Origin: Deltaproteobacteria bacterium
Lineage (GTDB): Bacteria; Desulfobacterota; Desulfobulbia; Desulfobulbales; Desulfurivibrionaceae
Direction of reading: 5' to 3'
NCBI GenBank assembly: GCA_013349295.1
Contig: DUZW01000007.1
Coordinates: 1-64,000 of the forward strand
Length of the DNA: 64,000 nucleotides
A program made the translations under genes and the position numbers. The first letter of the stretch is position 1; every line of letters starts with the position of its first letter. A model generated the notes under the pieces. The model worked only from the letters and a program-made list of their open reading frames with translations. It was not told where the DNA came from and ran no database searches. Of this stretch, positions 5,998 through 33,180 are shown piece after piece.

Positions 5998-6062
5998 TAT
6001 TAATATATACAAAAATCAATCCATATAATAGAGAATTTTTTCCTCAACCATAGATCTTACCC

Positions 6063-7609: not shown

Positions 7610-7628
7610 AAAAAAACTAAAAAAACTT

Positions 7629-8183: not shown

Positions 8184-8252
8184 AGATATCTCCGGTGTGT
8201 TATCAGCAGAAAATTTTCAGAAATAAACTCTTAAACCGCAATACTAAAAAAC

Positions 8253-8291
8253 AAAAAAAAAGAGATGGGAACATAAACATGCTCCCATCTC
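8253..8291 (-). terminator. Intrinsic terminator after pal
   Basis: Minus-strand hairpin with a 9-bp stem (GAGATGGGA / TCCCATCTC, 8283-8291 with 8262-8270), followed by a run of nine T residues (8253-8261). It lies about 30 bases downstream of the pal stop and upstream of skp. Confidence 0.85.
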
Positions 8292-8321
8292 AGATTGAGA
8301 CAATCTTCTTAGAAAAGAAGC

Positions 8322-8879: not shown

Positions 8880-9226
8880 TTTTCTCCTTCCTCCAGATAC
8901 ATCTTGTGACAGTTTTTTATATGGGAACAACTCCTTAATCAAGTACATATAATTCAATAATCGAAAAAATCATACAGAATTCTTTATCAATTTTCAACGT
9001 GTTTTTTTATATGCTTTCGTACTTTTCTGATACGTCAACACAGTAATCATCCCGCCTTTTGCCGCCCCTTAAAAACCAGCCCCACAGGCCTGTCTGCATA
9101 ATTCGCTTGCATGGCCGAGCCAAGACGTTATATCTTAACTCTCATCATAAAACTGAATACAATGTTTTTTTTCTGTTCCTCGAGATAAAAAAATTATCCC
9201 TTATTCCCTTGAGCCCGCATTGACCA
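8880..9226. other. AT-rich divergent intergenic region pal/glgP
   Basis: 347 bases without a gene. It contains the pal promoter. On the glgP side I see only AT-rich sequence and no convincing ribosome site or promoter; no RNA gene or repeat is visible. Confidence 0.5.
8969..8997 (-). promoter_or_regulatory. Sigma70-type promoter for pal
   Basis: On the minus strand TTGAAA (8992-8997) and TATGAT (8969-8974) are separated by exactly 17 bases, about 90 bases upstream of the pal ATG. No competing gene lies between them. Confidence 0.6.
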
Positions 9227-11491
9227 ATGAAATCTTCACATCCAGCCAATCCCAAAAAATCAACAGCGCCCAAGGTTCCGTTTTCACCTGACAGCAAGCA
9301 CCAAATTCGTGACATGCTTGCCACAAACAGATTCGGCACATTTTTCGGTGTTTCCCAAAAGGTTCTCGACTCGGTCTGGCAAGCCCTCACCTCCCCGACC
9401 GGTGAATCCGCCACTTACATCTCCATGGAAATAGGGGCGGATCTTGATGTTTTTCATCCGGTGCGCAACAAACTTCATCAACTCGAAATAACGGAACATC
9501 CGGATGAATCGATCAACCGATTCCTGCAACTATTCTTAAAGGGACCGGTCAAGATCCCCAACTACAGCGGCGGTCTCGGCATCCTTGCCGGAGACACCCT
9601 GAAAAGTTTCGCGGATTGCAAAATTCCGATAGTCGGGATATCCCTGCTGTACCGGAAAGGATATTTTTCCCAGATGGTCGATTCAAAAATCGGGCAGGTG
9701 GCCTGGGCTGCCGACTGGGCCCCGGAAAATACCCCGGGCCTGTATTTGCTGCACGACCCGAAATCCCCCACACAACCTCTCACCATTGAGGTTCCCTTTT
9801 ATGATCTCCAAGGGATACGATCCGTTGCCTGCGCCCATCTATGGCTCAAAATGGAGATAAACGAAGCCCTTGACTATTTTGTGCCGGAAATCCTTCTTGA
9901 TTACCAGACACCGCAGTCCCCCTCCTGGATTCAGGATGCCGCGCAACACCTTTACGACAGCAGTTCGGAAAAAGTAAAAGCAACCCAGCGTAGGCTCTTG
10001 GGTGTCGGCGTTGTCCCGGCCATGGAAGCCTTGGGCATAACCTCCCGCACCATTCATTTAAATGAACAACACGGCGTAGGCGTGGTTCTTTCCCTGATCA
10101 GCCAGCTCCTCCAGAATGAACATGGCCCCCAGTATGAAACAAAGGCAACGGACCAAGATATCCTCACCGCTGCGGCAGAAGTTGCCAAGCGCCTTGTCTT
10201 TACCATTCATACACCGGTTAAGGCCGGCCATGACCGTTTCAATATTTCCGTGTTTGACGATCTGATCAGCCCGTTCTGCAAGCACGCCCTGAATCTTCTG
10301 GCCAGGGAAGAGCACAACAACTACGTCTACAACTTCACCGCCATGGCCATGAAGCTCAACCGGGCCACCAACAGCGTAAGTCGACTCCACAAAGAAGTAA
10401 CCCAGAAGCAATTCCCGCAGTACGCAGACAAAATTACGGCTATCACCAACGGGGTGCACCATCTCACTTGGACAAGCGATGCCAAAGCAGAGCTGTACGA
10501 CACCTTTCCAGAATTGCACAACTGGAGGAGAGATCCCAGCGTTTTTGCCAAGGCTGAAACACTGCTGCGGCACAACAAATTCCGAACCTATTTTGAGCAG
10601 GCCTGGCGGACCGACACAATGATCCTGGTGGATTATGTAAACCGGATGCTCACCACCCATCGCAACCAGCGCCTTGCGACCTGGATTGATCCGCCCAACT
10701 ATCTTTCTTACCTGAGCATGGAGGAAGCCTCCCTGGATCACACGACCTTCACCCTGGGTTTTGCCAGACGCTTCTCCACTTACAAACGGGCGGATTTGAT
10801 CTTTGAAGATCTGGATCGCCTTACCGCAATGATTACGGAAAACAACTGGCCGGTGAATTTTATTTTTGCCGGCAAGGCCCATCCCTCGGATGAGCCCGGT
10901 CAAGATCTCATCCGAAACGTCCTGGCTGTTCAAGAAGAGCTGTACCAAAAAAGTCATGGTCTGGCAAAACTGGTCTTCATTCCGGGCTACGACATGCATG
11001 TCGCCAAAATGATGGTTGCCGGCTCCCATGCCTGGCTAAACAGCCCCAAACGCCCTCTAGAGGCCAGTGGCACCAGCGGGATGAAAGCCGCCATGAATGG
11101 CGTGCCCAACATCAGCATCATGGATGGCTGGTGGGTTGAAGGCTATCACGATGGCCGAACCGGCTGGAAATTCGGTTATGAAGATTCCATTTCCCATGAG
11201 CATTTCAGCGAGCAGCCTTCATCGCTTCTCTACAACGAAGACTCGGCCTCATTCTATACTGTTTTCCCGGAAATGCTGCGGTGGTTTTATGACCCTGCCC
11301 TGCATAATCAGTATATTGATAAGTGCATCGCCAATCTCTCCCTCAACTGCCCCATATTCAACACGCACCGCATGGCGGCGGAATATGTCGCCCGCTACGA
11401 CCTTGATCTTGCTCCGACGGTGAAACGGGAAATGAAAAAATTCCGCAGCCTCTACTGCAGCGACCCCTCTTTCCACGAACAATCAAAATGA
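9227..11491 (+). CDS. glgP: Alpha-glucan (glycogen) phosphorylase
   Basis: 754-aa GT35 phosphorylase of the shorter archaeal/bacterial type. It releases glucose-1-phosphate from storage glucans using pyridoxal phosphate. Signatures are YISMEIGADLDVFHP, NYSGGLGILAGDTLKSFADC (active-site glycine loop), HLNEQHGVGVVLSL and, near the C-terminus, SPKRPLEASGTSGMKAAMNG, whose Lys carries PLP. Most of the protein is in register with this family, with no gap or frameshift. It is monocistronic here, with no other glycogen genes nearby. Confidence 0.92.
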   Translation: MKSSHPANPKKSTAPKVPFSPDSKHQIRDMLATNRFGTFFGVSQKVLDSVWQALTSPTGESATYISMEIGADLDVFHPVRNKLHQLEITEHPDESINRFLQLFLKGPVKIPNYSGGLGILAGDTLKSFADCKIPIVGISLLYRKGYFSQMVDSKIGQVAWAADWAPENTPGLYLLHDPKSPTQPLTIEVPFYDLQGIRSVACAHLWLKMEINEALDYFVPEILLDYQTPQSPSWIQDAAQHLYDSSSEKVKATQRRLLGVGVVPAMEALGITSRTIHLNEQHGVGVVLSLISQLLQNEHGPQYETKATDQDILTAAAEVAKRLVFTIHTPVKAGHDRFNISVFDDLISPFCKHALNLLAREEHNNYVYNFTAMAMKLNRATNSVSRLHKEVTQKQFPQYADKITAITNGVHHLTWTSDAKAELYDTFPELHNWRRDPSVFAKAETLLRHNKFRTYFEQAWRTDTMILVDYVNRMLTTHRNQRLATWIDPPNYLSYLSMEEASLDHTTFTLGFARRFSTYKRADLIFEDLDRLTAMITENNWPVNFIFAGKAHPSDEPGQDLIRNVLAVQEELYQKSHGLAKLVFIPGYDMHVAKMMVAGSHAWLNSPKRPLEASGTSGMKAAMNGVPNISIMDGWWVEGYHDGRTGWKFGYEDSISHEHFSEQPSSLLYNEDSASFYTVFPEMLRWFYDPALHNQYIDKCIANLSLNCPIFNTHRMAAEYVARYDLDLAPTVKREMKKFRSLYCSDPSFHEQSK

Positions 11492-15135: not shown

Positions 15136-15975
15136 TTAATATATTCCGCAGACCTTAAGGGGAAGCGCCGTGGCAGGAACCTCGCCACGGAAAACAAGAT
15201 ACTCGAAAAAACGCCTCAGCGCCTCCTGCTTTTCACTGCCCAGATCATATTCAATACCCTTGAGATATCGGTAACAGGCATCTTCGTTCATGGGAACCCG
15301 CCCGGCCACAGTGGCGCTTATCTCCCGCAGCCGTTTCTTTCCCTCACGCAAACAACGGTGCAGTTCCTGATGGATGGCCAGGACGGTATCCGGAGCTGTC
15401 CGACAAAAATCCTCCCGCACGGCCCAGACCGCGAAGACAAAGGGCAGACCGGTACGGGCCTGCCACACCTCACCAAGATCGAGACGGTGGGGATAACTAT
15501 CTCCCGCAGCCAGACGCAAGGCCTCATCACCTATTGCCAGCACCGCGCTGGGTTTATCCATCCCTGCATCATTTTCCCTGGCCAAACCTGAACGATATCG
15601 GGGGCGAAGCTGATAAAACTCCTCCAAGATAATCTTTATCAAGCTCACCGACGTCTGGGACTGGGAACTGAGCTGGACAAGCCTATCATTCAATTGAGCG
15701 ACAGGGCATTCCGAAAAGAGAAAAACACTGCCCACCGGCCCGGTGGCCGAGATGGACAGATCGCTCAGAATCCTATACTCCCCCGAATGCAAAGCGTATT
15801 CCTGGGAGGAGACAAAACCGAGATCAAGCTCGTTTTTATGAAGCATACGGTTGAGCACCGAGGGCGGCGCCTCGGTAACCTGCCAGTCCGCGCGTTGCAC
15901 GGTTTGGCGCCATACCTCGTACAGGGGTGCGGTGTTGATGTAATTCACCATCCCGATTCTGGCCGTGATTTTCAT
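15136..15975 (-). CDS. mqnA: Chorismate dehydratase MqnA
   Basis: First enzyme of the futalosine menaquinone route: converts chorismate to 3-enolpyruvylbenzoate. A tandem ATG occurs at 15978 and 15975; I take the inner one, seven bases after GGAG, giving 279 aa starting MKITARIGMVNYINTAPLYE. Periplasmic-binding-protein fold signatures include LGFVSSQEYALHSGEYRIL, IGDEALRLAAG and LPFVFAVWAVRED. The start overlaps the mqnX stop region, so translation is probably coupled. Confidence 0.93.
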   Translation of the reverse strand: MKITARIGMVNYINTAPLYEVWRQTVQRADWQVTEAPPSVLNRMLHKNELDLGFVSSQEYALHSGEYRILSDLSISATGPVGSVFLFSECPVAQLNDRLVQLSSQSQTSVSLIKIILEEFYQLRPRYRSGLARENDAGMDKPSAVLAIGDEALRLAAGDSYPHRLDLGEVWQARTGLPFVFAVWAVREDFCRTAPDTVLAIHQELHRCLREGKKRLREISATVAGRVPMNEDACYRYLKGIEYDLGSEKQEALRRFFEYLVFRGEVPATALPLKVCGIY

Positions 15976-15979
15976 CATC

Positions 15980-17188
15980 TCACTCCAGCCACTCCAAGTG
16001 AATATCCGTGCCCGCCGAAGTAAGAAACTCAAAGAGTTCAGCCTCGTCCTTCGCCTGGCAGCGCACCGCCAGCAGGGAAGAGGAAACACCGGGAGCGATG
16101 GTGCCGTATTTTCCTTCGATTCCAAAAAGACGCGCGCCATTAAGCGAGGCCATGGCAAAGACCGCCTCGGGCCGGATATTCGGATGGTCTTCCCGCAACA
16201 ACTGCATTTCCCGCCAGAGGCTCAAGTGTGGGTTACTGGCCAGACTGTCCGTACCCAGCACCAGAGGGATGCCTTGCGCGAGCATTTTTTCCACCGGAGC
16301 CGCACCCACCCCCATGAACCGGTTACTGCCGGGGCAAAGGCAAACCGCACTCCCGCATGCGGCAAGAAGAGAAATCTCCTCATCGTCCAGATGCACACCA
16401 TGGACACAGAGGGTCTGTTCATCCAGCACCCCCAGGGAATCCAGATACCGGACCGCAGACACGCCGGGCACAATGAAGGCCTCAACCTCCACACCCCGCT
16501 CCACAAGAAAATCCCGGAACGGCCCGCTACCGGTGCGCAAAAATTCGATCTCCTGGGCAGACTCGGCTACATGCATGGAGAACAGACTCTTGGTGGCACG
16601 TGCCCTTTCCTTCAAGGCTCTGATCAGCGCAGGCCCAGTCGAATACGGAGCATGGGGTGTACAGCGAATATCGCCGCCGATCCCAGCCAAGGTCGCCAGG
16701 GCCGACTCCTCGCTTTTCCCGCACAGTCCGAGCAGCTCAAGAAAAAAGAGCACCTCGGTCTTGAAGCCCTCCCCCAACAATCGGCTTTCCGACATGTTGC
16801 CTATATCGGCCACGGTACGGCATCCCCCACCATAGAGACGGGCCAGGGCCATGAGCGCGGCATCATGCACGGTATCCTGATCGTGGTTTTCAGCACGGGC
16901 GGCGAGCAGACCCCTGATCCAACCGGTCATATCCCCGGGTGTTGGAGAATCCCCGGCCAAACCCGCCAGATAGGAAAGTTCGAGATGGGCATGGCAGTTC
17001 ACCAGCGATGGAACGATGACATGGCCTTCATAGTTTTCCAAACGGGCGTCAACGTCTTTCAATTCGGCATACGACCCCACCGCCGAAACCAAACCGTCTT
17101 CGGTGAGCACAGCGCCGTCGACGATGACCGGGCCATTGCCCGGGACCACAAATGGCGCCCGGTAGAGATAACGAGGGTATTCCTGCAT
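15980..17188 (-). CDS. mqnX: Aminodeoxyfutalosine deaminase-type amidohydrolase MqnX
   Basis: 402-aa metal-dependent amidohydrolase. The metal and active-site motifs are VNCHAHLELSYL (HxH), SMHVAESAQEIEFL, CVHGVHLDDEE and LVLGTDSLASNP. In this operon it most likely deaminates 6-amino-6-deoxyfutalosine (MqnE product) to futalosine, which the separate MqnB then cleaves. It begins two bases after the mqnC stop. The ATZ/TRZ family includes other deaminases, so context carries part of the assignment. Confidence 0.87.
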   Translation of the reverse strand: MQEYPRYLYRAPFVVPGNGPVIVDGAVLTEDGLVSAVGSYAELKDVDARLENYEGHVIVPSLVNCHAHLELSYLAGLAGDSPTPGDMTGWIRGLLAARAENHDQDTVHDAALMALARLYGGGCRTVADIGNMSESRLLGEGFKTEVLFFLELLGLCGKSEESALATLAGIGGDIRCTPHAPYSTGPALIRALKERARATKSLFSMHVAESAQEIEFLRTGSGPFRDFLVERGVEVEAFIVPGVSAVRYLDSLGVLDEQTLCVHGVHLDDEEISLLAACGSAVCLCPGSNRFMGVGAAPVEKMLAQGIPLVLGTDSLASNPHLSLWREMQLLREDHPNIRPEAVFAMASLNGARLFGIEGKYGTIAPGVSSSLLAVRCQAKDEAELFEFLTSAGTDIHLEWLE

Positions 17189-17190
17189 TC

Positions 17191-18246
17191 TTACACCAGG
17201 GTGTAGTCCATTTTGCGCTGCCTGGGAACACAGCCGGCGCCCTGAACCAATGCGCGGATCTCCTGCTCGGAGAGACGAAAGCCCACCCCGGCCGCAGCCA
17301 CCACGTTCTCCTCGATCATGGTGCTGCCGAAATCATTGGCCCCGAAAAAGAGCGAGAGCTGGGCAACCTTAGGCCCCTGGGTTACCCAGGAGGCCTGAAT
17401 ATTGTCGATATTATCGAGGAAGATCCGCGAGAGGGCCAGCATCCTCAGATAACCAAAGGCGGTGGTCTTGGGGAGATGGGAAAGCGCGGTATTGTCCGGC
17501 TGAAAGGGCCAGGGGATAAAGGCAGTGAAACCGCCGGTTTTATCCTGTAAGGCCCGGACCCTGGCAAGATGCTCGATACGCTCCGCCATGGTTTCAAGAT
17601 GCCCGAACATCATGGTCGCGGTGGTACGCATCCCAAGACCGTGCGCCTCTTCCATCACTCCGAGCCAGGCATCGGTGGAGCATTTGCGCGGCGCGGTTTC
17701 CTGCCGCACCCGATCGCAAAGGATCTCGGCTCCGCCGCCGGGGATGGAATCAAGCCCGGCCCGTTGCAAACGGATCAGAACCTCCCGCACCGGCAAGCCG
17801 GACAAGGTGGCAAAATGACAGACCTCGGGCGGGGAAAAGCCGTGAACATGGATGGTGTAGCCCTTGATAAAACGGAGCATCTCCTCGTAGAACTCCAAGG
17901 GCTTATCCGGATGGAGTCCACCTTGTAAAAGAATCTGGGTCCCACCCAACTCCTTGGTTTCCTCTATCTTTTCGCCAAGCTCGGCAAAGGAAAGCACCGA
18001 TCCCTCCGGATCTTCCGGAGCCTTGAAAAAAGCGCAGAACTTACAGGCTGAGACGCAGATATCGGTATAGTTGATATTGCGGTCGATGACATAGGTGACC
18101 ACCGGTTCCGGGTGTTTGCGCCTGCGGATGGCGTTGGCCAGAAAGCCCAGCTGGTAGAGATCGGCTTTTTCCGCAAGCATCAGGCCCTGGTCAACCGGAA
18201 GCCGCTCGCCGGCCAGCACCTTTTCCGTAATCCGTTGCATGTCCAT
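17191..18246 (-). CDS. mqnC: Cyclic dehypoxanthinylfutalosine synthase MqnC
   Basis: 351-aa radical SAM enzyme. The cluster motif CVSACKFC (CxxxCxxC) follows the family block TYVIDRNINYTDI. GGTQILLQGGLHPD, GLDSIPGGGAEIL and FIPWPFQPDNTAL are strongly MqnC-like. It cyclizes dehypoxanthinylfutalosine. The related enzyme upstream (mqnE) is clearly distinct in these same blocks. It starts five bases after the mqnE stop. Confidence 0.94.
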   Translation of the reverse strand: MDMQRITEKVLAGERLPVDQGLMLAEKADLYQLGFLANAIRRRKHPEPVVTYVIDRNINYTDICVSACKFCAFFKAPEDPEGSVLSFAELGEKIEETKELGGTQILLQGGLHPDKPLEFYEEMLRFIKGYTIHVHGFSPPEVCHFATLSGLPVREVLIRLQRAGLDSIPGGGAEILCDRVRQETAPRKCSTDAWLGVMEEAHGLGMRTTATMMFGHLETMAERIEHLARVRALQDKTGGFTAFIPWPFQPDNTALSHLPKTTAFGYLRMLALSRIFLDNIDNIQASWVTQGPKVAQLSLFFGANDFGSTMIEENVVAAAGVGFRLSEQEIRALVQGAGCVPRQRKMDYTLV

Positions 18247-18251
18247 GATGC

Positions 18252-19346
18252 TTAATACTCCTTGATCACGTTATACAGGGTGTCCCGTTCCACCGGTTGC
18301 CGCCCTGCATCCCGGATCAACCGGATCAACTCGGTGTCGGCCATGGTTCCACCGGTTTCACCGCCGGCCATGTGGGTGATCAATTCCTCCTTCACCGTGC
18401 CGTCCACATCGTCCGCCCCGAAGGAGAGGGCTATCTGGGCCAGTTTTGGGCCGATCATCACCCAGTAGGCCTTGATGTGCGGAAAGTTGTCGAGAAAACA
18501 ACGGGCCACCGCGATATTTTTCAGGTCGTCAAGGCCGCTGGTCTTGGCCAGCTCGTGCATCTCGGTGTTCTTCGGGTGGAAGGCAAGGGGGATGAAGGTG
18601 AGAAAACCGCCGGTTTCATCTTGGGCCGTGCGGAGCATCTCCAAGTGTTCCACCCGCTCCTCAATGGTCTCGATATGACCGTAAAGCATGGTGGCGTTGC
18701 TCTTGAGCCCGAGCCGATGAGCTGCCTTGGCAACCTCGAGCCAGCCCTCGCCGGAAAGCTTCTTTTCGCAGGTCCGCAGCCTGATCCTCGGGCTGAACAC
18801 CTCGGCCCCGCCGCCTGGAATCGAGCCGAGTCCGGCTGCAATCAGTTCCTCGAGGGTCTCGGTCACGGATTTTCCGACAAGGGTAGCCAGATGGGCAATC
18901 TCCACGCAGGTAAAGGCCTGGATATGAATCTCCGGCCGTACCGCTTTAATCCCGCGCAGCATGTCCAGATAATACTGAAAGGGCAAATCCGGGTGAATCC
19001 CCCCCACCACATGCACCTCGGTGATGGGCTCGGACAGCCGCTCCCGCACCTTGGCCTTAACCTGATCCACCGTCATCTCATAGGCCTGCGACGATTCCTT
19101 GTCCTTGCCGAATGCACAGAACTTGCAGAGGTTGGTGCAGATATTGGAATAATTTACGTGCTGGTTATAGATAAAATAGGCGCGGTCGCCGTTGATCCGC
19201 TCCCGCACGAGGTTGGCCATGTAGCCGACCGCCAGGATATCGTTGCTTTTATACAGCCGGACCCCGTCCGCAGCGCTGAGCCGCTTCCCGACCTTGACCT
19301 TCTCCAAAATATCTCCAAGCCCTGCCGCAACCACCATCTGTTCCAT
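18252..19346 (-). CDS. mqnE: Aminofutalosine synthase MqnE
   Basis: 364-aa radical SAM enzyme that joins 3-enolpyruvylbenzoate with SAM-derived adenosyl to give aminofutalosine. The cluster motif is CTNLCKFC after YFIYNQHVNYSNI. Other MqnE marks are EVHVVGGIHPDLPFQYYLDM, GLGSIPGGGAEVFSPRIR and FIPLAFHPKNTEM. Its ATG lies three bases after the tetR stop, and its AGGAGA ribosome site is inside the tetR coding end, so the regulator and pathway genes are translated from one message. Confidence 0.94.
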   Translation of the reverse strand: MEQMVVAAGLGDILEKVKVGKRLSAADGVRLYKSNDILAVGYMANLVRERINGDRAYFIYNQHVNYSNICTNLCKFCAFGKDKESSQAYEMTVDQVKAKVRERLSEPITEVHVVGGIHPDLPFQYYLDMLRGIKAVRPEIHIQAFTCVEIAHLATLVGKSVTETLEELIAAGLGSIPGGGAEVFSPRIRLRTCEKKLSGEGWLEVAKAAHRLGLKSNATMLYGHIETIEERVEHLEMLRTAQDETGGFLTFIPLAFHPKNTEMHELAKTSGLDDLKNIAVARCFLDNFPHIKAYWVMIGPKLAQIALSFGADDVDGTVKEELITHMAGGETGGTMADTELIRLIRDAGRQPVERDTLYNVIKEY

Positions 19347-19349
19347 TAC

Positions 19350-20036
19350 TCAATCTCCTGCGCTGTTGCACTGCTTCCTGTCAGGTTGCAATCCGGTACG
19401 CAGCACCGCAACCATACTGTCAATCTCATCATGAAGCCGACCGACCGGCATCCCGGCCAGCGCCAGACCCCCATCAAGATACGGCTGGGCATATCCTTGC
19501 AGAAACCGATCCAGCATCGCATCCAGAATAAACACCACCTTGTGCGCCGGGATATCGCGGCGCAACACGCCCTGCCCCATGGCCCGATCCGCAAGCGGCC
19601 CGAAATACTCCAGGGAAAAGAGACGAACCCTGGCCACCAGTTCCTCCCGACGCGGGACATCACGTTCGAAGAGCACCTTGAGATAGACCTGAAAATATTC
19701 CGGGTGGTGGTCGATGAAGTCTATCCCTGCCAATAATACCTGCTTGGCCACGGCAAAAAAATCATCCTGACCATTGCCTGCGACCGATGCCTTGACATAC
19801 CGTTTCACCTGCTGGGTGAAATGGTCAAACACATGCAGGAACAGGGCTTCCTTGTTGTCGAAATACTGGTAGAGCGAGCCTTTGGATATCCCCAGTCGTT
19901 TGACGATACTGTTAAGACTTGCCCGCTGGTAACCCTGTGCGGCAAATTCGGTAACCGCCGCACGCACGATGCTTTCGCGCTTTTCCGGCGGCAGGTTCTC
20001 GAAGGTTTGTTTTGGCTGAACAAGAAGGGTATCCAT
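19350..20036 (-). CDS. TetR-family transcriptional regulator heading the mqn operon
   Basis: 228 aa. The N-terminal TetR HTH (residues about 18-66) reads RESIVRAAVTEFAAQGYQRA then SLNSIVKRLGISKGSLYQYF and DNKEALF. The C-terminal ligand domain is not recognisable by eye. A 26-bp palindrome covers the start codon, so autorepression is likely and would extend to mqnE onward. It also faces the fadD island, 486 bases away, so it could control both. TetR regulators of fatty-acid genes are common, but the ligand is unknown here. Confidence 0.88.
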   Translation of the reverse strand: MDTLLVQPKQTFENLPPEKRESIVRAAVTEFAAQGYQRASLNSIVKRLGISKGSLYQYFDNKEALFLHVFDHFTQQVKRYVKASVAGNGQDDFFAVAKQVLLAGIDFIDHHPEYFQVYLKVLFERDVPRREELVARVRLFSLEYFGPLADRAMGQGVLRRDIPAHKVVFILDAMLDRFLQGYAQPYLDGGLALAGMPVGRLHDEIDSMVAVLRTGLQPDRKQCNSAGD

Positions 20037-20522: not shown

Positions 20523-22202
20523 ATGGAACCAGTCTGGCTGAAGCATTATCCCCAAGGCATTCCGGCCGAGGTCGACACTTTTCGCTTTACCTCTCTTAGG
20601 GAGATGTTTGCGCAGAGTTGCGGGCGGTTCCGCGAGCATCCCGCCTTCACCAACATGGGCGTGGCCATGACCTATGGCGACCTCGACCGGTTTTCCCGTG
20701 ATTTCAGCGCCTACCTTCAGCAGGTTCTCGGTCTGCGCAAAGGCGAGCGCGTGGCCATTATGCTGCCCAACCTGCTGCAATATCCGGTGGCGCTGTTCGG
20801 TGCGCTACGCGCGGGCCTGATTGTAGTCAACGTCAATCCGCTCTACACCCCGCGCGAATTACAATACCAATTAGCCGACTCCGGGGCGGTGGCCATAGTG
20901 GTACTGGAAAATTTCGCCCATACGCTGCAGGAAGTCATCGGCGCAACTGCGGTGCGCCATGTTATCACTACTCAGGTGGGGGATATGTTCCCGCCGATGC
21001 GGGCGCAGCTTGTCAACTTCGTCATCAAATGGATCAAACGCATGGTGGTGCACTGGGACCTGCCCGGGGCAATTGCCTTCAACACCGCGCTGAAACTTGG
21101 CGCAGCCCATGCGCTCGTCGATGTGGAGCTTGGCCATACGGATATCGCCTTCCTGCAATATACGGGCGGAACAACCGGGTTGGCCAAGGGCGCGATCCTG
21201 ACGCACGGCAACATGGTGGCCAACGTGGAGCAAACCTCGGCCTGGATCGGCGCGACACTGAAGGAAGGCGAAGAAGTGATCGTCACGCCGCTGCCGCTCT
21301 ACCATATCTTCGCCCTCACCGCCAATCTGCTCACCTTTGTCAAATGGGGAGCAAACAACATTCTGATCACCAATCCCCGCGACATCCCCCGCTTCGTGCA
21401 GGAACTCAAAAAAAACCGCTTCACCGCCATAACCGGCGTCAACACCTTGTTCAATCTTCTCCTGCACGAGCCGGGTTTCAAGTCTGTAAAAAAGGCCAAC
21501 GCCGGCGCCCTGAAAGTTTCGGTGGCGGGCGGCATGAGCGTGCAGCGCTCGGTGGCTGAAGGCTGGCAGCAGATGATGAGACTGCCGCTCATCGAGGGTT
21601 ATGGTTTGACCGAGGCCTCCCCCATCGTCTGTGTGAATCCGCTGGACGCCAAGACATTCAGCGGCAAAATCGGCATCCCGATTCCCTCCACCCGGGTGGA
21701 GATCAGAAACGAGGAAGGGTGCGAGCTCCCCCTGAACGAGATGGGAGAAATCTGCGTGCAAGGGCCGCAAGTAATGCGGGGCTACTGGAACATGCCGGAA
21801 GAAACCGCCCGTGTTCTCAGCGCCGATGGCTGGCTGCGCACCGGGGACATCGGCATGATGGACGAACGCGGCTATATCCAATTCATCGACCGCCACAAGG
21901 ACATTATCGTGGTCTCCGGCTTCAAGGTCTACCCCGCCGAGGTCGAGGAGGTGGCGATGATGCATCCCGGGGTAAAGGAGGTCGGCGCCGTGGGCGCCCC
22001 TGATGAGAAAAGCGGCGAGGTGGTCAAGGTATATGTGGTAAAAAAGGATACAGCCCTCACCGCCGAATCGCTGATTGCACACTGCAAAGCGAATCTGACC
22101 GCATACAAGGTGCCGAAGCATGTGGAGTTTCGGGAAAAACTTCCCAAGTCACCCATCGGCAAGATTCTGCGCAGGAAGCTGAAAGAGGAGCAGGTGACAT
22201 GA
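20523..22202 (+). CDS. fadD: Long-chain fatty acid-CoA ligase (FadD type)
   Basis: 559-aa AMP-forming acyl-CoA synthetase, close in order and wording to gammaproteobacterial FadD: MLPNLLQYPVALFGALRAG, VVNVNPLYTPRELQYQL, the P-loop YTGGTTGLAKGAILTH, NILITNPRDIPRFVQEL, EGYGLTEASPIVCVNP, TGDIGMMDERGYIQFIDRHK and the catalytic-Lys end SPIGKILRRKLKEE. It activates free fatty acids in the cytoplasm. Codon use looks richer in GCG/CGC than the flanks, as for the next genes, suggesting an acquired block. Its stop overlaps the next small ORF by ATGA. Confidence 0.93.
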   Translation: MEPVWLKHYPQGIPAEVDTFRFTSLREMFAQSCGRFREHPAFTNMGVAMTYGDLDRFSRDFSAYLQQVLGLRKGERVAIMLPNLLQYPVALFGALRAGLIVVNVNPLYTPRELQYQLADSGAVAIVVLENFAHTLQEVIGATAVRHVITTQVGDMFPPMRAQLVNFVIKWIKRMVVHWDLPGAIAFNTALKLGAAHALVDVELGHTDIAFLQYTGGTTGLAKGAILTHGNMVANVEQTSAWIGATLKEGEEVIVTPLPLYHIFALTANLLTFVKWGANNILITNPRDIPRFVQELKKNRFTAITGVNTLFNLLLHEPGFKSVKKANAGALKVSVAGGMSVQRSVAEGWQQMMRLPLIEGYGLTEASPIVCVNPLDAKTFSGKIGIPIPSTRVEIRNEEGCELPLNEMGEICVQGPQVMRGYWNMPEETARVLSADGWLRTGDIGMMDERGYIQFIDRHKDIIVVSGFKVYPAEVEEVAMMHPGVKEVGAVGAPDEKSGEVVKVYVVKKDTALTAESLIAHCKANLTAYKVPKHVEFREKLPKSPIGKILRRKLKEEQVT

Positions 22203-22306
22203 TCGCCCTGGCGCTCTTAATCTTTCAGGCACATCTGCCCCAAGCCACGCATGCAGACATCTCCCGCCTCGACCCGGTGCCTGCCCAACGCCAGGAGGGG
22301 AAATGA
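22199..22306 (+). CDS. 35-codon ORF coupled to both neighbours
   Basis: It starts MIALALLIFQAHLPQATHA and ends ADISRLDPVPAQRQEGK. Its ATG overlaps the fadD stop (ATGA at 22199-22202) and its TGA overlaps the start of the next gene (ATGA at 22303-22306). A GAGGAG ribosome site lies about eight bases ahead. The first 19 residues look like a short signal peptide with a cleavable ATHA end. I do not recognise it. It may be a real secreted or membrane micropeptide, or mainly a device for translational coupling. Confidence 0.55.
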   Translation: MIALALLIFQAHLPQATHADISRLDPVPAQRQEGK

Positions 22307-23085
22307 ACGGATTGCCCCACTCAACCCCGCGCGCCAAGGCGCTCATGCTCTGGTTGCCGGCTGCGGCTTTAGCCGGCCTGGCATGCGCGCTGCCGCGAAT
22401 CCCCCAACCACAGCACTATCATGAATTCGCCGACCAACGCACCATCTTCTGGGTGCCGAATTTCCTCAATACCTCCTCCAATATCTTGTTTGTACTGGCG
22501 GGACTGGCTGGCCTGCGCTTCCTGCACAGCGAGACAGGACGAGATAGTTTCCTTAAGCCGCGCGAGGCGCTGCCTTACGCGCTGTTCTTTTTCGCCGTTA
22601 TCCTGACCGGCTTCGCCTCCGGCTATTATCATCTTGCCCCCGACAACGATCGGCTGATGTGGGATCGGGCGGCGATTACCCTGGCACTCGTCTCCTGGTT
22701 CGATGCAATCCTGTGCGAACGCGTCACTCTTACCACCGGGCTGCGCCTGCTCCCGCTGATGTTTACCGCCGGACTGGGCAGTGTTGCCTACTGGGGCTTA
22801 AGCGAACTGCACGGCCGGGGCGACCTGCGCGCCTATGGCCTGATCCAGTGTTATCCGATACTGCTGATCCCGCTGCTGCTCAGGCTGTATCCACCGCGTT
22901 ACACCGGCGACAAGGACATCCTGACCGTAATCGGCCTCTACCTGATAGCCTTGCTGTGCGATTTCAACGATCGTCGAATTGCTACGCTGATCGAGATGAT
23001 CAGCGGACACACGACAAAACATCTCCTCGCCGCGTTGTCGGCATATTGGGTGGTGATCCGATTAAAACAGCGCCGGATCCTCTAA
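22303..23085 (+). CDS. Ceramidase-like CREST-superfamily membrane hydrolase
   Basis: 260 aa with about seven hydrophobic segments. The alkaline-ceramidase (PF05875-type) metal site is complete: Ser106 and His110 in SGYYH, Asp121 in WDR, and His236/His240 in SGHTTKHLL. The S-x3-H-x10-D and HxxxH spacings equal those of human ACER3 as I recall it. NFLNTSSNILFVLAGLAG is the usual family N-terminal helix. It would cleave an amide-linked acyl chain from a lipid inside the membrane; the true substrate is unknown, since ceramide synthesis genes are not seen here. It is coupled to the upstream small ORF. Confidence 0.8.
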   Translation: MNGLPHSTPRAKALMLWLPAAALAGLACALPRIPQPQHYHEFADQRTIFWVPNFLNTSSNILFVLAGLAGLRFLHSETGRDSFLKPREALPYALFFFAVILTGFASGYYHLAPDNDRLMWDRAAITLALVSWFDAILCERVTLTTGLRLLPLMFTAGLGSVAYWGLSELHGRGDLRAYGLIQCYPILLIPLLLRLYPPRYTGDKDILTVIGLYLIALLCDFNDRRIATLIEMISGHTTKHLLAALSAYWVVIRLKQRRIL

Positions 23086-24435: not shown

Positions 24436-27261
24436 ATGAACCCACCTCCCTCACAACCATCCCCCGACTTTTCCAGCGATGGAGAGCAGCTCCTCTCCAT
24501 CGTGCGCAAGCTTGCCCGTGAACTGAAACCAAACGCAAACACCATGGAGCACCTGGGGCTGAATCATGGGCTGGAGCGCGATTTCGGTTTGGACAGCCTG
24601 ACGCGAGTGGAACTGCTTGTCCGCATCGAGCGCGACATGGGGGTCAGACTGGCCGAGACGGCGTTGGCCGAGGCTGAAACGCCCGGCGATCTGCTGCGTC
24701 TGATGAGAGGCACACTTCTTGGCGAAACACCTGCCCGACCCCATATCTCACCGCAAACTCCAAGCGAAATTCATCATCCTCCGGAAACCATCGCCACACT
24801 GACCGAGATGCTCGACTGGCATGTCGCGCAACACGGCGAGCGGACGCACATCACTTTGTATGTCGAAGAGGAGCGCACGGAGGAGATCACCTATCGCATG
24901 CTGCAAGCAGAGGCCCGGACACTGGCGGCCGGATTGCTCGCTCAAGGGGTTACTGCCGGAGAGAGAATCGCCATCATGCTGCCCACCGGACGGGACTTTT
25001 TCTCCGTTTTCTATGGCACGATCTATGCCGGTTGCGTGCCGGTACCGCTCTACCCGCCGGCTCGTCCGTCGCAGCTCGAGGATCACATGCGGCGCATCGC
25101 CGGGATCGTCGTCAATGCCGAAGCCGCCATGCTCATCACCGATGAGCGGGCCAAGCCGCTCGGCCACCTGCTCCGTGCACAATGCCCCGCGCTGCGCTCC
25201 GTTAAGACCGTCGCGGAACTAGCCTGCCCCGGCGGCACGCCACCACCCTTGCCAAGGCCAAACGCGCAGGACATCGCCTTCCTGCAATACACCTCCGGCA
25301 GTACCGGCAACCCAAAAGGTGTGGTGCTGACTCACGCTAATCTGCTCGCCAACTTGCGCGCGATGGAACAAGCCTCCGGCATTACCTCGACGGACATCTT
25401 TGTCTCCTGGCTGCCCCTTTACCACGACATGGGCCTGATCGGCGCCTGCATGGGCAGCCTCAGCTTCGGCTTTCGACTGGTGCTGATGTCACCCCTCGCC
25501 TTCCTCGCCAGGCCCAGCCGCTGGCTGTGGACCATCCACCGACATCGCGCCACTGTCTCGGCGGCGCCCAATTTTGCCTATGAACTATGCGCCAACAAGC
25601 TCAAAGATCGCGATCTCGACGGCCTTGATCTGAGCTGTTGGCGACTGGCTTACAACGGGGCCGAGTCGGTCAGTCCCGAGACGCTGACTCATTTTGCCAC
25701 GCGTTTTGCTCCCAAAGGTTTTCGCCCCGAAGCAATGACCCCGGTCTATGGCCTGGCGGAATCCTCCCTCGGACTGGCCTTTCCACCGCTTAAACGCGGA
25801 CCGCTCGTTGACCGAATTGATCGCGATGCACTTTTTGCTACCGGCATCGCCCGTATTGCGACGGCGGAGGATTCCTCCCCGCACCGCATCGTTTCTTGCG
25901 GCCTGCCCCTGTCCGGCCACTCCATCCGCATTGTCGACGCCAACGGCAGGGAAATGCCGGAACGCACCCAAGGACGCGTACAGTTTCAGGGGCCATCCGC
26001 AACCCGCGGCTATTTCCGCAACCCCGAGGCCACCCATCGCCTGTTCGACGGGGCATGGCTTAACACCGGAGATCTGGGCTATCTCGCAGCAGGAGAGCTC
26101 TACCTCACCGGACGCGAGAAAGATATCATCATTCGCGGCGGTCATAACATTCATCCCCAGGAACTGGAAGAAGCTGTAAACCAGGTGCCCGGCATCCGCA
26201 AAGGCGGGGTGGCGGTGTTCCCGGCCACTGACTCGCATACCGGCTCGGAACGGCTGGTGGTGCTTGCCGAGACGCGCGCGCACAGCATGATTGAGGAACG
26301 CAGTCGCATACGGGACGCAATCAACCATCTCACCATTGATTTGCTGGGACTACCCGCCGATGACATCGTGCTGGCGCCACCGCGCACCGTTCTCAAAACT
26401 TCCAGCGGCAAAATTCGCCGCGCTGCCTGTCGGGAACGCTACGAACGCGGTGAGTTGAGCAGAACCCAGCAACCACCATGGCTGCAATTAACGCGCCTGA
26501 CTTGCTCGGGCACTGCGGCACATGTCCGGCATTGGCTGAAACGCGGCATCGGATGGGTCTGGAGCGCTTGGGCCTGGGCGGTTTTTGCCGTCATCACCCC
26601 CTTCGCCTGGCTCCTGATCATACTTGCCCCAACGTTAAAGCTGCGCCGGCTCATGGCCAAGGCAAGCGCCCGTCTTTCCCTGGCCATGACAGGGCTGATG
26701 CCACGGGTGGAGGGCTTGCAGCACCTTGCCGAAAACACCCCGGTGATCGTGGTCTGCAATCACGCCAGTTATTTGGATGCCCTGATCCTCACGGCCATGC
26801 TACCTGCCAGATTCACCTACGTGACCAAACAGGAGCTGCTAGGTAAACCGTTTGCCGGCATCCCGCTGCGCCGGCTCGACAGCGCATTTGTTGAGCGTTT
26901 TGACAGCGCACGCGGCGTGGAGGACACATGCGGACTGGAGGAGCGGGCACGCATCGGCGCATCCCTGTTGTTTTTCGCGGAAGGTACCTTCCGAACCCTA
27001 CCGGGACTGCTGTCGTTCCGCATGGGGGCATTTATTGTCGCCGCACGCTGTAGTCTTCCGGTAGTACCTGTAACCCTGATCGGCACCCGCACTCTGCTGC
27101 GCGACGAAACATGGCGCCCGCATTACTGCAAACTCCAAATGCTGATCGACAAACCGGTATCGCCGGAAGGGGATAACGACTGGCAAAAGGCATTAAAACT
27201 TCGGGACACGGTGCGCGGTCGGATTCTGGAGCGACTGGAGGAACCGGATTCAACCTGTTGA
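24436..27261 (+). CDS. ACP - fatty acyl-AMP ligase - PlsC acyltransferase fusion
   Basis: 941 aa, start at ATG 24436 after GGGAGAAG. Residues 15-92 are an acyl carrier protein with the phosphopantetheine serine at 54 (FGLDSLTRVEL). Residues about 120-675 are a FAAL-type adenylating domain: YTSGSTGNPKGVVLTH (285-300), LPLYHDMGLIGACMG (326-340), YGLAESSLG, NTGDLGYL and SSGKIRR with catalytic Lys659. A hydrophobic anchor (about 703-732) leads to a PlsC/AGPAT domain (about 745-940) with HX4D at His776-Asp781 (NHASYLDAL) and FAEGTFR at 847-853. It can plausibly activate an acyl group, load it on its own ACP and transfer it to a lysolipid. Confidence 0.88.
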   Translation: MNPPPSQPSPDFSSDGEQLLSIVRKLARELKPNANTMEHLGLNHGLERDFGLDSLTRVELLVRIERDMGVRLAETALAEAETPGDLLRLMRGTLLGETPARPHISPQTPSEIHHPPETIATLTEMLDWHVAQHGERTHITLYVEEERTEEITYRMLQAEARTLAAGLLAQGVTAGERIAIMLPTGRDFFSVFYGTIYAGCVPVPLYPPARPSQLEDHMRRIAGIVVNAEAAMLITDERAKPLGHLLRAQCPALRSVKTVAELACPGGTPPPLPRPNAQDIAFLQYTSGSTGNPKGVVLTHANLLANLRAMEQASGITSTDIFVSWLPLYHDMGLIGACMGSLSFGFRLVLMSPLAFLARPSRWLWTIHRHRATVSAAPNFAYELCANKLKDRDLDGLDLSCWRLAYNGAESVSPETLTHFATRFAPKGFRPEAMTPVYGLAESSLGLAFPPLKRGPLVDRIDRDALFATGIARIATAEDSSPHRIVSCGLPLSGHSIRIVDANGREMPERTQGRVQFQGPSATRGYFRNPEATHRLFDGAWLNTGDLGYLAAGELYLTGREKDIIIRGGHNIHPQELEEAVNQVPGIRKGGVAVFPATDSHTGSERLVVLAETRAHSMIEERSRIRDAINHLTIDLLGLPADDIVLAPPRTVLKTSSGKIRRAACRERYERGELSRTQQPPWLQLTRLTCSGTAAHVRHWLKRGIGWVWSAWAWAVFAVITPFAWLLIILAPTLKLRRLMAKASARLSLAMTGLMPRVEGLQHLAENTPVIVVCNHASYLDALILTAMLPARFTYVTKQELLGKPFAGIPLRRLDSAFVERFDSARGVEDTCGLEERARIGASLLFFAEGTFRTLPGLLSFRMGAFIVAARCSLPVVPVTLIGTRTLLRDETWRPHYCKLQMLIDKPVSPEGDNDWQKALKLRDTVRGRILERLEEPDSTC

Positions 27262-27380: not shown

Positions 27381-28379
27381 CTACAACTCACTCCTGTTAA
27401 CCCATTGCAGGATGGTGTTGATTCCCTCCGCCGTCGAAACCTTGGGGAAATATCCAAGATCGCGGTTGGCGTTCTCGATGGAGAACCAATGGGATTTCGC
27501 CAGTTGCACGGCAAGAAAGCGCGTCATGCAGGGCTCCCGTTTGATCCGTGCAAGGGCAAAAGCCTTTTCCATGAACATCCCACTCAGGTAAGCCTTGTGA
27601 AAAGGGATGCTCTCCTCGACAATGGGAATATCAAGCCGTCTGAAAAACTTATTGAGCCAATTCCAAAGATTGACCGGCTCTCCCTGGGAGATAAAATACG
27701 GTTTTCCCGCTCCCGAGGCCGGGCCATGCAAGTTTTTCGCCGCCAGGACGAAGGCATCCGCCGCATTATCGATATAGGTAACATCAACGAGATTGTGACC
27801 GTCCCCGACACGTTTCAACTGTCGGCATCTGGCATGACCTAAAAGGCGGGGGATAAAATTGGCGTCTCCAGGCCCCCAGACAAGATGAGGACGCAAGGCC
27901 ATGGTTTTCAGGGAGGCGGAGTTGGCCTCGAGGACCATTTTTTCGGCAATGGCCTTACTCCGGACATAGTCAGAGAGGTAATTCCGGGCGTAGGGAGTGC
28001 GCTCGTTCACCCCGCACAGGTCGTCTTTCTGGTAAACAACCCCTGGCGTACTGCCATAGACGAGGGCCGCAATGTGATTTGCGCGACAGGCGTCCAAGAC
28101 ATTCTGGGTTCCAACGACATTGGTCCGGTAATACTCCTTTTTGTCTCCCCAGATGCCGTTCTTGGAGGCAAGATGGATTACGGTGTCGTAACCGGCCAGG
28201 GAATTTTTCAGGAAATCCGCATCCCCGATATCACCTGAAAAAACCCGTACCCCTAAGGGGTCTGCTTCGAGAAAAGAACTTCGAGCGACAACGGCTGTCT
28301 CAATACCCTCAGCCACAAGGCGTTGAACCAGCGCCCTGCCGACAAAACCACTTCCGCCAAGCACCACAATACGCTGCAT
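27381..28379 (-). CDS. Extended SDR, OleD-like (3-beta-HSD family) dehydrogenase
   Basis: 332 aa. The NAD(P)-binding GGSGFVGRAL is at residues 8-17. The catalytic Tyr and Lys are in SDYVRSKAIAEK. ALRPHLVWGPGDANFIPRLL and DVTYIDNAADAFVLAAKNL with GKPYFISQGEPVNLWNWLN closely resemble OleD, the 2-alkyl-3-ketoalkanoate reductase of head-to-head olefin synthesis. No oleA, oleB or oleC gene is in the window. It faces the end of the lipid island. Bacterial ceramide synthesis also uses an epimerase-like SDR, so a sphingoid-lipid role is an alternative. I am sure of the family, not the substrate. Confidence 0.72.
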   Translation of the reverse strand: MQRIVVLGGSGFVGRALVQRLVAEGIETAVVARSSFLEADPLGVRVFSGDIGDADFLKNSLAGYDTVIHLASKNGIWGDKKEYYRTNVVGTQNVLDACRANHIAALVYGSTPGVVYQKDDLCGVNERTPYARNYLSDYVRSKAIAEKMVLEANSASLKTMALRPHLVWGPGDANFIPRLLGHARCRQLKRVGDGHNLVDVTYIDNAADAFVLAAKNLHGPASGAGKPYFISQGEPVNLWNWLNKFFRRLDIPIVEESIPFHKAYLSGMFMEKAFALARIKREPCMTRFLAVQLAKSHWFSIENANRDLGYFPKVSTAEGINTILQWVNRSEL

Positions 28380-30547: not shown

Positions 30548-32482
30548 ATGACAACCTTCAGAGAAAACGATGTCCATGCAGTCGCGCCTGAAGTGGCGAT
30601 CTCGTTTTTAAAGGGGATCATGCCTTTTAATACCTTAAATGCGAACACGCTGAAATCTCTTGCACGGCATTGCCGGATTGATTTTTTCCCCAAGGGAACC
30701 AGGATTCTTACCGCGGACACCACCGAACTGACCCATCTTTTCCTAATCCAGCAAGGCGGGGTCAAAGCCTTTCTGGAAGACGACAACGGCGAGGTGACCC
30801 TGAAGGACTTTCGAGGAGAAGGCGCCTACATCGGTGCCCTGGCTATCATCCGCGGAACCCCTGCCAATCTTAATATTGAGACCGTGGAGGACACTTTTTG
30901 TTTCCTCCTGCCCCGAGAGATATTTCTCGACCTCATTGAAAAACAAGCATCCTTTGCCCACTATTACCTGAAGAGTTTTTCCGAAAAAATCGTCACCACC
31001 GCCTATAACGAGCTGCGTCATCACAAGGTGGCGCGACGCAGCAATGAAGATCTCTACCTTTTTTCCATCAAGGTTGGCGATTTGGTAAAAGACTTACGCA
31101 AGGTGGTGGCCAGTGCCACCATTCAGGAGGCAGCCGCCCATATGTCCGAGCATCGGGTAGGCTGCCTGTTGGTCCATGACACAGCCGATGCGGAAAAAAT
31201 TGTCGGCATAATCACCGACCGGGATCTCAGGAGAAAGGTGGTGGCTGCCGGGCTGGATTATCAACAACCGGTGCAGACCATCATGAGTGGGCCGGTGCAG
31301 ACCGTACTGTCACAATCTCTCTGTTTTGATGTCTTGTTAAAGATGATGGCCACCGGTGTCCATCATCTGGCGGTGGAGCGTGCCGGACGGATCATCGGGG
31401 TTATTACCTCCCATGACATCATGCTCCTGCAGGGCCACTCACCCTATTATCTGCTCAAGGAGATCCGAGCCCAACAACAGATTCCCGGCTTGTATCCCTT
31501 GGCACAAAAGATTCCGGAGGTGATTCGAGGGCTGATTTCCGAAGGGGCCAAGGCCGGAAATATAACCCAGATGATTGCCATCCTCAACGATCATATCCTG
31601 GAACGGATGTTAACCTTGCTGGAACAAGAAATGGGGATGCCGCCTCTTCCCTACTGCTGGCTGCTTTTGGGCAGTGAAGGTCGCCGTGAGCAGACCTTCA
31701 AAACCGATCAGGATAATGCCATCATTTATGCTGATCCCGCGGATGAGGCCCAGAAACACAAAGCCGAGACGTACTTCAAAGCCTTTGCCGACAAGGCTAT
31801 TGACCATCTGGTAAACTGTGGCTATCCTCTCTGCCCCGGTGAGGTGATGGCCATTAATCCGCGTTGGTGCCAACCTCTTTCGGTTTGGAAACACTATTTT
31901 GAACGCTGGATTGCCGAGCCTGACCCGCAGGAATTGCGTTATGCCACGATCTTTTTTGATTTTCGCCCAGGCTTTGGTGAGTCCGCACTCGCGGAGGACC
32001 TCCGAACCCACTTAAACCGGCAGATAGCTGGCCGAGATCTTTTTCTGTTCCATCTGGCCCGCCAGTGTATGGAAACCCGTATCCCCCTTTCTTTTTTCAA
32101 GAATTTCATTGTTGAAAAAGACGGGGAACATAAAAACCGACTGGATATTAAACGCCAGGGACTAAGCCCTTTTGTTTATTTTGCCCGGGTACTGGCTCTG
32201 AAATACGGGGTGAAGGAGACCAATACCCTGGCCCGCCTCAAAGCACTGATGGATGGCGAATGGATCCAAAGGGAGTTATGGTCTGCGGCCAGCGAGGCCT
32301 ATGAACTCCAAATGCAACAACGTCTGGTACATCAATTAAGACAGATTGAGGCCGGGGTTCTTCCCGACAATTATATCGATCCGGCTGATCTCTCCGATCT
32401 GGAACGCAGGATGCTCAAGGACGCCTTCACGGTTATTGAAAGACTGTATGGCGTACTGGGGCAGATGTATCCGGTGACATGA
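30548..32482 (+). CDS. cNMP-binding / CBS / DUF294 putative nucleotidyltransferase
   Basis: 644 aa. Order: cyclic-nucleotide-binding fold (about 20-140: FFPKGTRILTADTTELTHLF and FRGEGAYIGALAI), a CBS pair (about 175-300: HRVGCLLVHD, GIITDRDLRRKVV, GVITSHDIMLLQGH), a DUF294 nucleotidyltransferase-like core (about 365-480: LLLGSEGRREQTFKTDQDNA, the GS...DxD signature) and a DUF294 C-terminal helical domain. This type is related to GlnD-like signal transducers. It overlaps the following exonuclease by ATGA and precedes a DUF4212/symporter pair, a linkage also known in Vibrio, where it is thought to regulate acetate-type uptake. Confidence 0.85.
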   Translation: MTTFRENDVHAVAPEVAISFLKGIMPFNTLNANTLKSLARHCRIDFFPKGTRILTADTTELTHLFLIQQGGVKAFLEDDNGEVTLKDFRGEGAYIGALAIIRGTPANLNIETVEDTFCFLLPREIFLDLIEKQASFAHYYLKSFSEKIVTTAYNELRHHKVARRSNEDLYLFSIKVGDLVKDLRKVVASATIQEAAAHMSEHRVGCLLVHDTADAEKIVGIITDRDLRRKVVAAGLDYQQPVQTIMSGPVQTVLSQSLCFDVLLKMMATGVHHLAVERAGRIIGVITSHDIMLLQGHSPYYLLKEIRAQQQIPGLYPLAQKIPEVIRGLISEGAKAGNITQMIAILNDHILERMLTLLEQEMGMPPLPYCWLLLGSEGRREQTFKTDQDNAIIYADPADEAQKHKAETYFKAFADKAIDHLVNCGYPLCPGEVMAINPRWCQPLSVWKHYFERWIAEPDPQELRYATIFFDFRPGFGESALAEDLRTHLNRQIAGRDLFLFHLARQCMETRIPLSFFKNFIVEKDGEHKNRLDIKRQGLSPFVYFARVLALKYGVKETNTLARLKALMDGEWIQRELWSAASEAYELQMQQRLVHQLRQIEAGVLPDNYIDPADLSDLERRMLKDAFTVIERLYGVLGQMYPVT

Positions 32483-33180
32483 TGGTGAATCTGCTGAAAC
32501 CTGGCTCCTGGTTTGCCTCTCCTCACCCTCTCATTATCAAAAACAGGGAGACCTTTTCCCGATTTGACCAATCCCGCCCCCTTGCCGAGTATTCCTTTGT
32601 GGTTTGTGACACCGAACTGACCGGTTTCGATCAAAAAAAGGATGAAATTATCTCCATTGGCGCTGTTATGATCCGAAATTTACAGATCGATCTCGGCACC
32701 ACCTTTCATCGATATATCAGACCAATAAATATCGAGCATACTAAAGCCACCTTAGTCCACAGAATTACGCCGCAACAATTAGCGGCAGCACCGCCCTTGG
32801 AAGAAGTGCTTCCAGCCTTTATTGAATTTGCGAAAAACAGCCTCTTGGTGGGACATTGCGTGACGCTTGACATGGGTTTTTTAAACAGGGCCGCCCGCAA
32901 GATTCTGGGCGGAACCCTATCCAATCCAGGAATTGACACCATCCGCATGGCTCAGGGGTATCGGCGGGTGCTGTCGGGACATTTTCACGGAGAGGAGGAC
33001 GGATCACGCAGTTATTCCCTGGAAGATCTGACCAAGGAATATCACCTCCCCACGTTCAAGTCACATGATGCCTTTGAGGATGCGATGCAGACGGCCTATC
33101 TTTTTCTCTTTCTCCTCAAGAAATTCAGAAAAGGCGGTCTGTTGACCCTAAAGGATATCTATCGAGCAGGAAGGGTTTGA
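32479..33180 (+). CDS. DnaQ-like DEDDh 3'-5' exonuclease
   Basis: 233 aa. The exonuclease motifs are ExoI VVCDTELTGFD (D and E), ExoII VGHCVTLDMGFLN and ExoIII HDAFEDAMQT (His and Asp). It resembles the proofreading epsilon subunit but is encoded separately from a polymerase and coupled by ATGA to the DUF294 gene. The natural substrate is unknown; in this neighbourhood it recurs with symporters, so a role in nucleotide signal turnover is possible but not shown. Confidence 0.85.
   Translation: MMVNLLKPGSWFASPHPLIIKNRETFSRFDQSRPLAEYSFVVCDTELTGFDQKKDEIISIGAVMIRNLQIDLGTTFHRYIRPINIEHTKATLVHRITPQQLAAAPPLEEVLPAFIEFAKNSLLVGHCVTLDMGFLNRAARKILGGTLSNPGIDTIRMAQGYRRVLSGHFHGEEDGSRSYSLEDLTKEYHLPTFKSHDAFEDAMQTAYLFLFLLKKFRKGGLLTLKDIYRAGRV

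Follow-up and report, generated by a model that had tools for sequence, protein, structure and literature searches.

The locus considered here raises the question of what a bacterium does with one protein in which an acyl carrier protein (ACP), an acyl-activating ligase and a lipid acyltransferase are joined, and to which acceptor an acyl group activated there is passed. The window, that is the whole stretch of DNA analysed, comprises 64,000 nucleotides. The open frame extends from 24385 to a stop ending at 27261, and the ATG at 24436, preceded by a purine-rich stretch, yields a chain of 941 residues (Table 1). Pfam profiles, all above their curated cut-offs, place PF00550 (PP-binding) at residues 39-89, PF00501 (AMP-binding) at 127-527 and PF01553 (Acyltransferase) at 757-881, the order that a sequence-only reading had given for a single chain. 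The whole-chain model, built from 81 sequences (mean pLDDT 89.4), shows, in order, an ACP-type bundle of helices (12-92), the entire ligase (about 115-675), helices 681-730 and 734-752 and the transferase. The catalytic residues named in that reading are numbered exactly: Ser54, the modifiable serine of the ACP domain, Lys659, His776 and Asp781, together with Glu849 and Gly850, do not vary in any of the 81 distinct full-length rows of the alignment.

Table 1. Positions in the window of the fusion gene, its domains and the neighbouring genes
Feature	Position	Strand	Basis
TetR-type regulator, divergent from FadD	19350..20036	-	PF00440
FadD-type long-chain acyl-CoA ligase, first gene of co-directional run	20523..22202	+	815 bits to PRK08974, cut-off 884 not reached
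CREST/ceramidase-like membrane protein, 260 aa; SxxxH (S106, H110), D121, HxxxH (H236, H240)	22303..23085	+	PF05875, motifs
ATG22/UMF1-type MFS transporter, 439 aa	23097..24416	+	PF11700, 2.4e-36 on longer frame
Fusion gene ACP - FAAL - PlsC, 941 aa	24436..27261	+	frame, Pfam, alignment
ACP domain, helices aa 12-92; Ser54 (24595-24597), expected phosphopantetheine site	24469..24711	+	PF00550, model, alignment
FAAL domain (predicted), aa 115-675; catalytic Lys659 (26410-26412)	24778..26460	+	PF00501, best solved relative EcFAAL 3pbk, alignment
Helix pair, aa 681-730/734-752, which probably seats the PlsC part on the membrane	26476..26691	+	models, hydropathy, 5kym alignment
PlsC acyltransferase core, aa 757-881; His776 (26761-26763), Asp781 (26776-26778), Glu849-Gly850	26704..27078	+	PF01553, alignment

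The fusion is widespread. A scan of genome contigs gave at least 592 candidate stretches, of which at least 580 are relatives. The 98 loci examined comprise the 80 best of these, 17 stretches found in genomes related to the window's and the window itself. The protein is full length in 83 of these and partial in 15, where the contig ends, the frame is broken or one end matches weakly; removal of the partial and of 2 duplicate loci leaves the 81 alignment rows. The 98 loci were chosen by likeness to the whole fusion protein, and a phylum sample of 395 genomes gives a less biased count: 31 genomes match the fusion at 1e-100; in 16 the match spans the whole protein in a single frame, and in 15 it is confined to the ligase. 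Among plasmids, at least 80% of the fusion is covered in 9 of 181 matching records, and in the window's own genus it is present in 8 of 17 genomes (1 partial and 1 broken). An artefact of assembly or a frameshift joining two genes, which like the absence of the fusion from relatives would have spoken against the sequence-only reading, has a negligible probability. Broken reading frames do occur in the copies of two relatives (L113 and L024), with none in the window; misassembly is excluded because the great majority of the candidate stretches are relatives and 16 genomes of the phylum sample hold a full-length copy in one frame. Chance is likewise ruled out by the conservation among relatives.

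The ligase resembles FAALs rather than CoA-ligases. Its best solved relative is EcFAAL (3pbk, 332 bits, TM-score 0.92 by target length), and a Legionella FAAL is also among the nearest solved structures (Z 49.8). In EcFAAL, CoA rejection and the alternative pocket involve W224, M231, F279, P226, P107, T83 and a short helix, T252-R258 (PMC8460268). Mapped through the 3pbk alignment, in which chain numbers are one lower than in that paper, these elements correspond to W325, M332, F380, P327, P208, T184 and P353-R359 of the fusion. W325, P327, M332 and F380 occur in 81/81 rows, P208 in 80/81 and T184 in 75/81. The ANL fold also contains the FAAL-specific insertion, with about 27 residues more than FadD: between YGLAE and the CG motif that follows, all 81 fusion rows have 47-59 residues, as would be expected of the insertion, against about 24 in the neighbouring FadD. 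By these features the ligase is expected to be a FAAL and not a CoA-ligase. From the CoA-rejection residues and the insertion, its predicted acceptor is holo-ACP and not CoA.

Which ACP is loaded may be approached by counting carriers. The assembly of the window's genome (2.9 Mb, 88% complete) has PF00550 in two places, an 83-aa ACP frame and the fusion, and PF01553 in two, a 302-aa frame and the fusion; searches with these two families revealed neither an Aas nor a carrier of PKS or NRPS type in it. Because the genome holds only these two carrier domains and the ligase has FAAL features, loading of the protein's own ACP, as proposed in the sequence-only reading, is likely and is the best reading of the sequences. 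Of 11 other fusion genomes tested, G008 and G446 have only two carriers and 9 have more, and the argument from the lack of a further carrier holds for G000, G008 and G446 only. The ACP domain might also be loaded otherwise, or the PlsC part fed from free ACP. The usual role of FAALs, loading of polyketide synthases (PMC8460268), would have the ligase serve a polyketide or peptide synthase distinct from the fusion, with an incidental PlsC part. This is very improbable: no PKS or NRPS carrier is seen in the window's genome (at 88% completeness), G008 or G446, and the PlsC catalytic residues are invariant in every row. Hand-over to a polyketide synthase is thus unsupported in the window's genome, which has no further carrier, and the contrast drawn earlier with PKS-linked FAALs holds.

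Since whole-chain fold searches returned ligase-type chains, the PlsC part was folded alone (pLDDT 95.6). This model aligns from domain residue 26 on with the solved LPA acyltransferase PlsC of Thermotoga maritima (5kym; Z 25.0, 227 aligned, rmsd 2.6), including part of the N-terminal helices. The matches that follow are a complex I assembly intermediate chain (Z 15.3), GPATs (Z 14-15), PatA (10-12) and LpxM (9). The NHX4D and EG motifs are complete, with N775, H776, D781, E849 and G850 invariant. The helix pair 681-752 in front of the core resembles the N-terminal helices of the Thermotoga enzyme and need not cross the membrane. The membrane hairpin proposed for this region is correct only in part: a single strongly hydrophobic stretch lies within the long helix 681-730, where the best 19-residue hydropathy windows begin (710-718), whereas the second helix, 734-752, is more polar.

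The closeness of the modelled domain to PlsC favours, though it does not prove, a lysoglycerophospholipid acceptor. One form of this would be a second LPA acyltransferase of de novo phospholipid synthesis, which acylates lysophosphatidic acid with exogenous or special fatty acids while the MFS and CREST proteins encoded nearby serve other ends. We regard it as possible but on the improbable side. Among solved structures the Thermotoga PlsC is the closest by a wide margin, TIGR00530 AGP_acyltrn is the NCBIfam model that matches the domain best (77.2 bits, below the cut-off of 102.95) and the FadD gene of the co-directional run suggests that free fatty acids are used; however, another PF01553 protein is present for the standard step, and the repeated linkage to an MFS gene (below) is left unexplained. 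The next NCBIfam matches, lyso-ornithine lipid acyltransferases at 50 and 48 bits, point instead to an acceptor other than a glycerophospholipid, for example a lyso-aminolipid, a glycolipid or diacylglycerol, and aminolipid acyltransferases do belong to the LPLAT family (PMC11631085). Such an acceptor is rather unlikely, as these scores lie far under the curated cut-offs of 300 and the fold is closer to PlsC than to PatA or LpxM.

Two known systems combine similar activities. Aas of Escherichia coli contains a ligase and a PlsC-type transferase in one chain, uses an acyl-ACP donor and is partnered by the MFS protein LplT (PMC11416262). The fusion shares the two types of domain in one chain and, as proposed here, the acyl-ACP donor and the MFS partner, which in its case belongs to PF11700. 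Unlike the fusion, with its ACP, FAAL-type ligase and transferase, Aas has the transferase first, the synthetase second and no ACP domain, a contrast that the sequence-only reading had drawn correctly. ElbD of Myxococcus xanthus, compared by architecture only, likewise unites acyl activation, ACP and an AGPAT-like transferase, and its ACP and ACS activities have been demonstrated (PMC9131029). Its order is FAR-ACS-ACP-AT, with the reductase first and the ACP between ligase and transferase; the fusion has an N-terminal ACP and no reductase. By domain order and content, the fusion is thus neither an Aas nor an ElbD. An ElbD-like function in ether lipid synthesis would find some encouragement in the shared domains and in the report of ElbD-like proteins without FAR (PMC9131029, PMC9426513). 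It is nevertheless quite improbable: the reductase is missing, the ACP precedes the ligase, no elb-operon family recurs among 74 upstream and 76 downstream neighbouring frames, and an SDR lies downstream in only 3 of 76 scanned places. EcFAAL has the same ligase fold and CoA-rejection residues, and differs in being a 583-residue ligase alone that was assayed with a separate ACP (PMC8460268). The Thermotoga PlsC shares the transferase fold and N-terminal helices; its 241 residues make up a transferase alone, with neither ligase nor ACP. In its conclusions, PMC8460268 devotes one sentence to FAAL-like domains fused with lysophospholipid acyltransferases; these are probably of the same kind as the present protein, and that sentence gives neither ACP, neighbours nor function.

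The genes around the fusion were compared in 74 of 88 upstream and 76 of 90 downstream frames, short or doubtful frames and duplicates being left out. ATG22-type MFS proteins are immediate neighbours in 11 of 74 upstream and 3 of 76 downstream cases, and no other family stood out in these frames as part of a wider conserved operon. When counted with the MFS profile, the transporter is next to the fusion in 20 and absent beside it in 56 of the 76 determinable loci, the remaining 22 of the 98 loci having too little flank. Three loci seem to duplicate contigs already counted, L106 that of L095, L115 that of L083 and L111 that of L058, which leaves 18 of 73 distinct loci. The transporter gene can be upstream on the same strand, divergent (L052), downstream on the same strand (L063, L088) or downstream on the opposite strand (L083). 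On the tree this state changes at least 9 times, and the linkage must therefore have arisen or been lost several times. In the phylum sample, ATG22 MFS proteins are found in 10 of 16 fusion genomes compared with 85 of 379 others (Fisher p 9e-4, uncorrected for kinship), and the other 6 fusion genomes have none at the cut-off used. Among 58 relatives the figures are 16 of 18 with the fusion and 13 of 40 without it (p 1e-4, again uncorrected for kinship and to a large extent reflecting the linked cassette). In Aromatoleum diolicum, a culturable carrier of the fusion, the genome gave no MFS match. In NCBIfam, which presumably includes an LplT model, the window's transporter has 5 weak matches, none of them named LplT.

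Seen from the transporter, the association is looser. Of 60 loci around ATG22 MFS genes, only 2 (L136 and L175) have a PlsC match, which indicates that this transporter is not dedicated to such enzymes; 55 contain none of the three domains when searched with profiles built from this family. L136 comes from a genome (G057) without the window-type fusion and encodes, at 6752-9478 (-), a 909-aa frame with AMP-binding (22-418), PP-binding (608-660) and Acyltransferase (720-849) domains, that is, the domain order of ElbD without the reductase. Its ATG22 MFS gene (5379-6713, -) lies about 90 bases away on the same strand, if the first Met is the start. That two differently built carrier-bearing transferases stand beside an ATG22 MFS gene supports a shared function, by one case. 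Two further observations concern these loci. Genome G443, chosen for its MFS gene, contains a second fusion of 947 aa (L175:6411-9251, -), tail to tail with the MFS gene and a few bases apart. In L166, from the same family as three genomes with both MFS and fusion, a lone ACP-like frame of 154 codons (6713-7174, +) follows an ATG22 MFS gene and is perhaps a remnant.

In the window, the fusion is the last of four genes on one strand, with gaps of 100, 11 and 19 bases between FadD, CREST, MFS and fusion. This order is kept in L100, L101, L103 and L104 of the same genus, in a Desulfoarculaceae MAG (L021) and, with an MFS fragment, in a Polaromonas MAG (L022). L024 has CREST, MFS and fusion; in L102 (genome G008) FadD directly adjoins the fusion, and homologues of MFS and CREST are elsewhere in the genome. 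No CREST match was found in L113. Among the 98 loci, the nearest relatives of the fusion outside the genus are the Desulfoarculaceae MAG and betaproteobacterial copies (66-71%), and other full-length copies from the window's order reach about 45-50%. The window, Aromatoleum, Polaromonas and Rhodocyclaceae copies form a branch with support 98, and G+C is 0.61 in the MFS and fusion genes against 0.53 in the window. Horizontal transfer of the cassette is likely. The divergent TetR-type protein is possibly its regulator.

CREST proteins are defined by the motifs SxxxH, a conserved Asp and HxxxH (PMC3146951). The cassette includes one in only 8 of the 98 fusion loci; PF05875 matches all 8 members (the window's copy at 26.3 bits, below the cut-off of 32.5), and the five motif residues are invariant in 8/8. 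Of 58 relatives, 7 have a CREST homologue; all 7 also carry the fusion, and in G008 and G033 the two are unlinked. This association is uncorrected for kinship and in large part reflects the linked cassette itself. A PDB profile search with the CREST alignment returned only two chance-level matches. A role in sphingolipid metabolism, suggested by the 'ceramidase' name of this neighbour, was rejected: none of the best 8 of 11 PF00155 places in the genome attained the threshold of a serine palmitoyltransferase model. In the same scan L179 was above the BioF cut-off, while L181 was BioF/Kbl-like and below all cut-offs. The L181 frame (682-2571, +) has 630 codons, with the BioF/Kbl-type domain at 271-624.

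From the observed domains, residues and linkage, we infer the following chemical steps, acceptor, MFS substrate and CREST activity. The FAAL domain would convert free fatty acid and ATP to acyl-AMP, as its family and conserved residues suggest, and the acyl group would then pass to phosphopantetheine on Ser54 of its own ACP. The PlsC domain, at the inner membrane face, would then use this acyl-ACP to acylate a lysolipid; the closeness to the LPA acyltransferase PlsC makes a lysoglycerophospholipid the most likely acceptor. The ATG22-type MFS protein may be the flippase partner that supplies this lysolipid, its lipid substrate being a guess, and the CREST protein may be a membrane hydrolase that frees the fatty acid or makes the lysolipid. 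By analogy, the proposed mechanism follows the Aas-LplT pair, except that the enzyme brings its own carrier. Fusion, transporter and CREST protein together would resemble a toolkit for repairing membrane lipids. As a whole, this self-loading lysolipid acyltransferase with an MFS flippase and a CREST hydrolase is judged about equally likely to be right or wrong. Whether the four genes constitute a portable Lands-type cycle of deacylation and reacylation, in which CREST releases acyl chains of membrane lipids, MFS flips the resulting lysolipid inwards and FAAL-PlsC reacylates it with a selected free fatty acid, independently of CoA and of the shared ACP, is a more tentative and rather doubtful extension.

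If correct, the proposed mechanism would allow a single protein, in many phyla, to carry free fatty acid through to membrane lipid without recourse to CoA or the shared ACP pool. It would also give a function to FAAL-acyltransferase fusions, so far in print without one. For bacterial ATG22-type MFS proteins, the recurrence of the transporter suggests a role that can be tested, and through the cassette a bacterial CREST protein would be linked to lipid turnover. Searches of the open-licence literature listed no functional study of the fusion, no biochemistry for its family and no lipid role for bacterial ATG22 proteins. New here are the cassette ending in the fusion and the ATG22 MFS as its only recurrent neighbour; fusions of FAAL with lysophospholipid acyltransferases are already in print.

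Promoter and terminator scans gave little above shuffled sequence, and the only Rfam match was the tRNA. The flanks of the cassette contain genes of other kinds. Menaquinone (futalosine) genes precede it at 15136-19346 (-), encoding a VitK2_biosynth protein, an amidohydrolase, MqnC and MqnE. After the fusion, 27381-28379 (-) encodes an SDR like the 2-alkyl-3-oxoalkanoate reductase OleD (below cut-off), which also follows the fusion in L100 and L102. Further downstream, at 30548-33180 (+), a cNMP-CBS-DUF294 protein is followed by an exonuclease-like frame.
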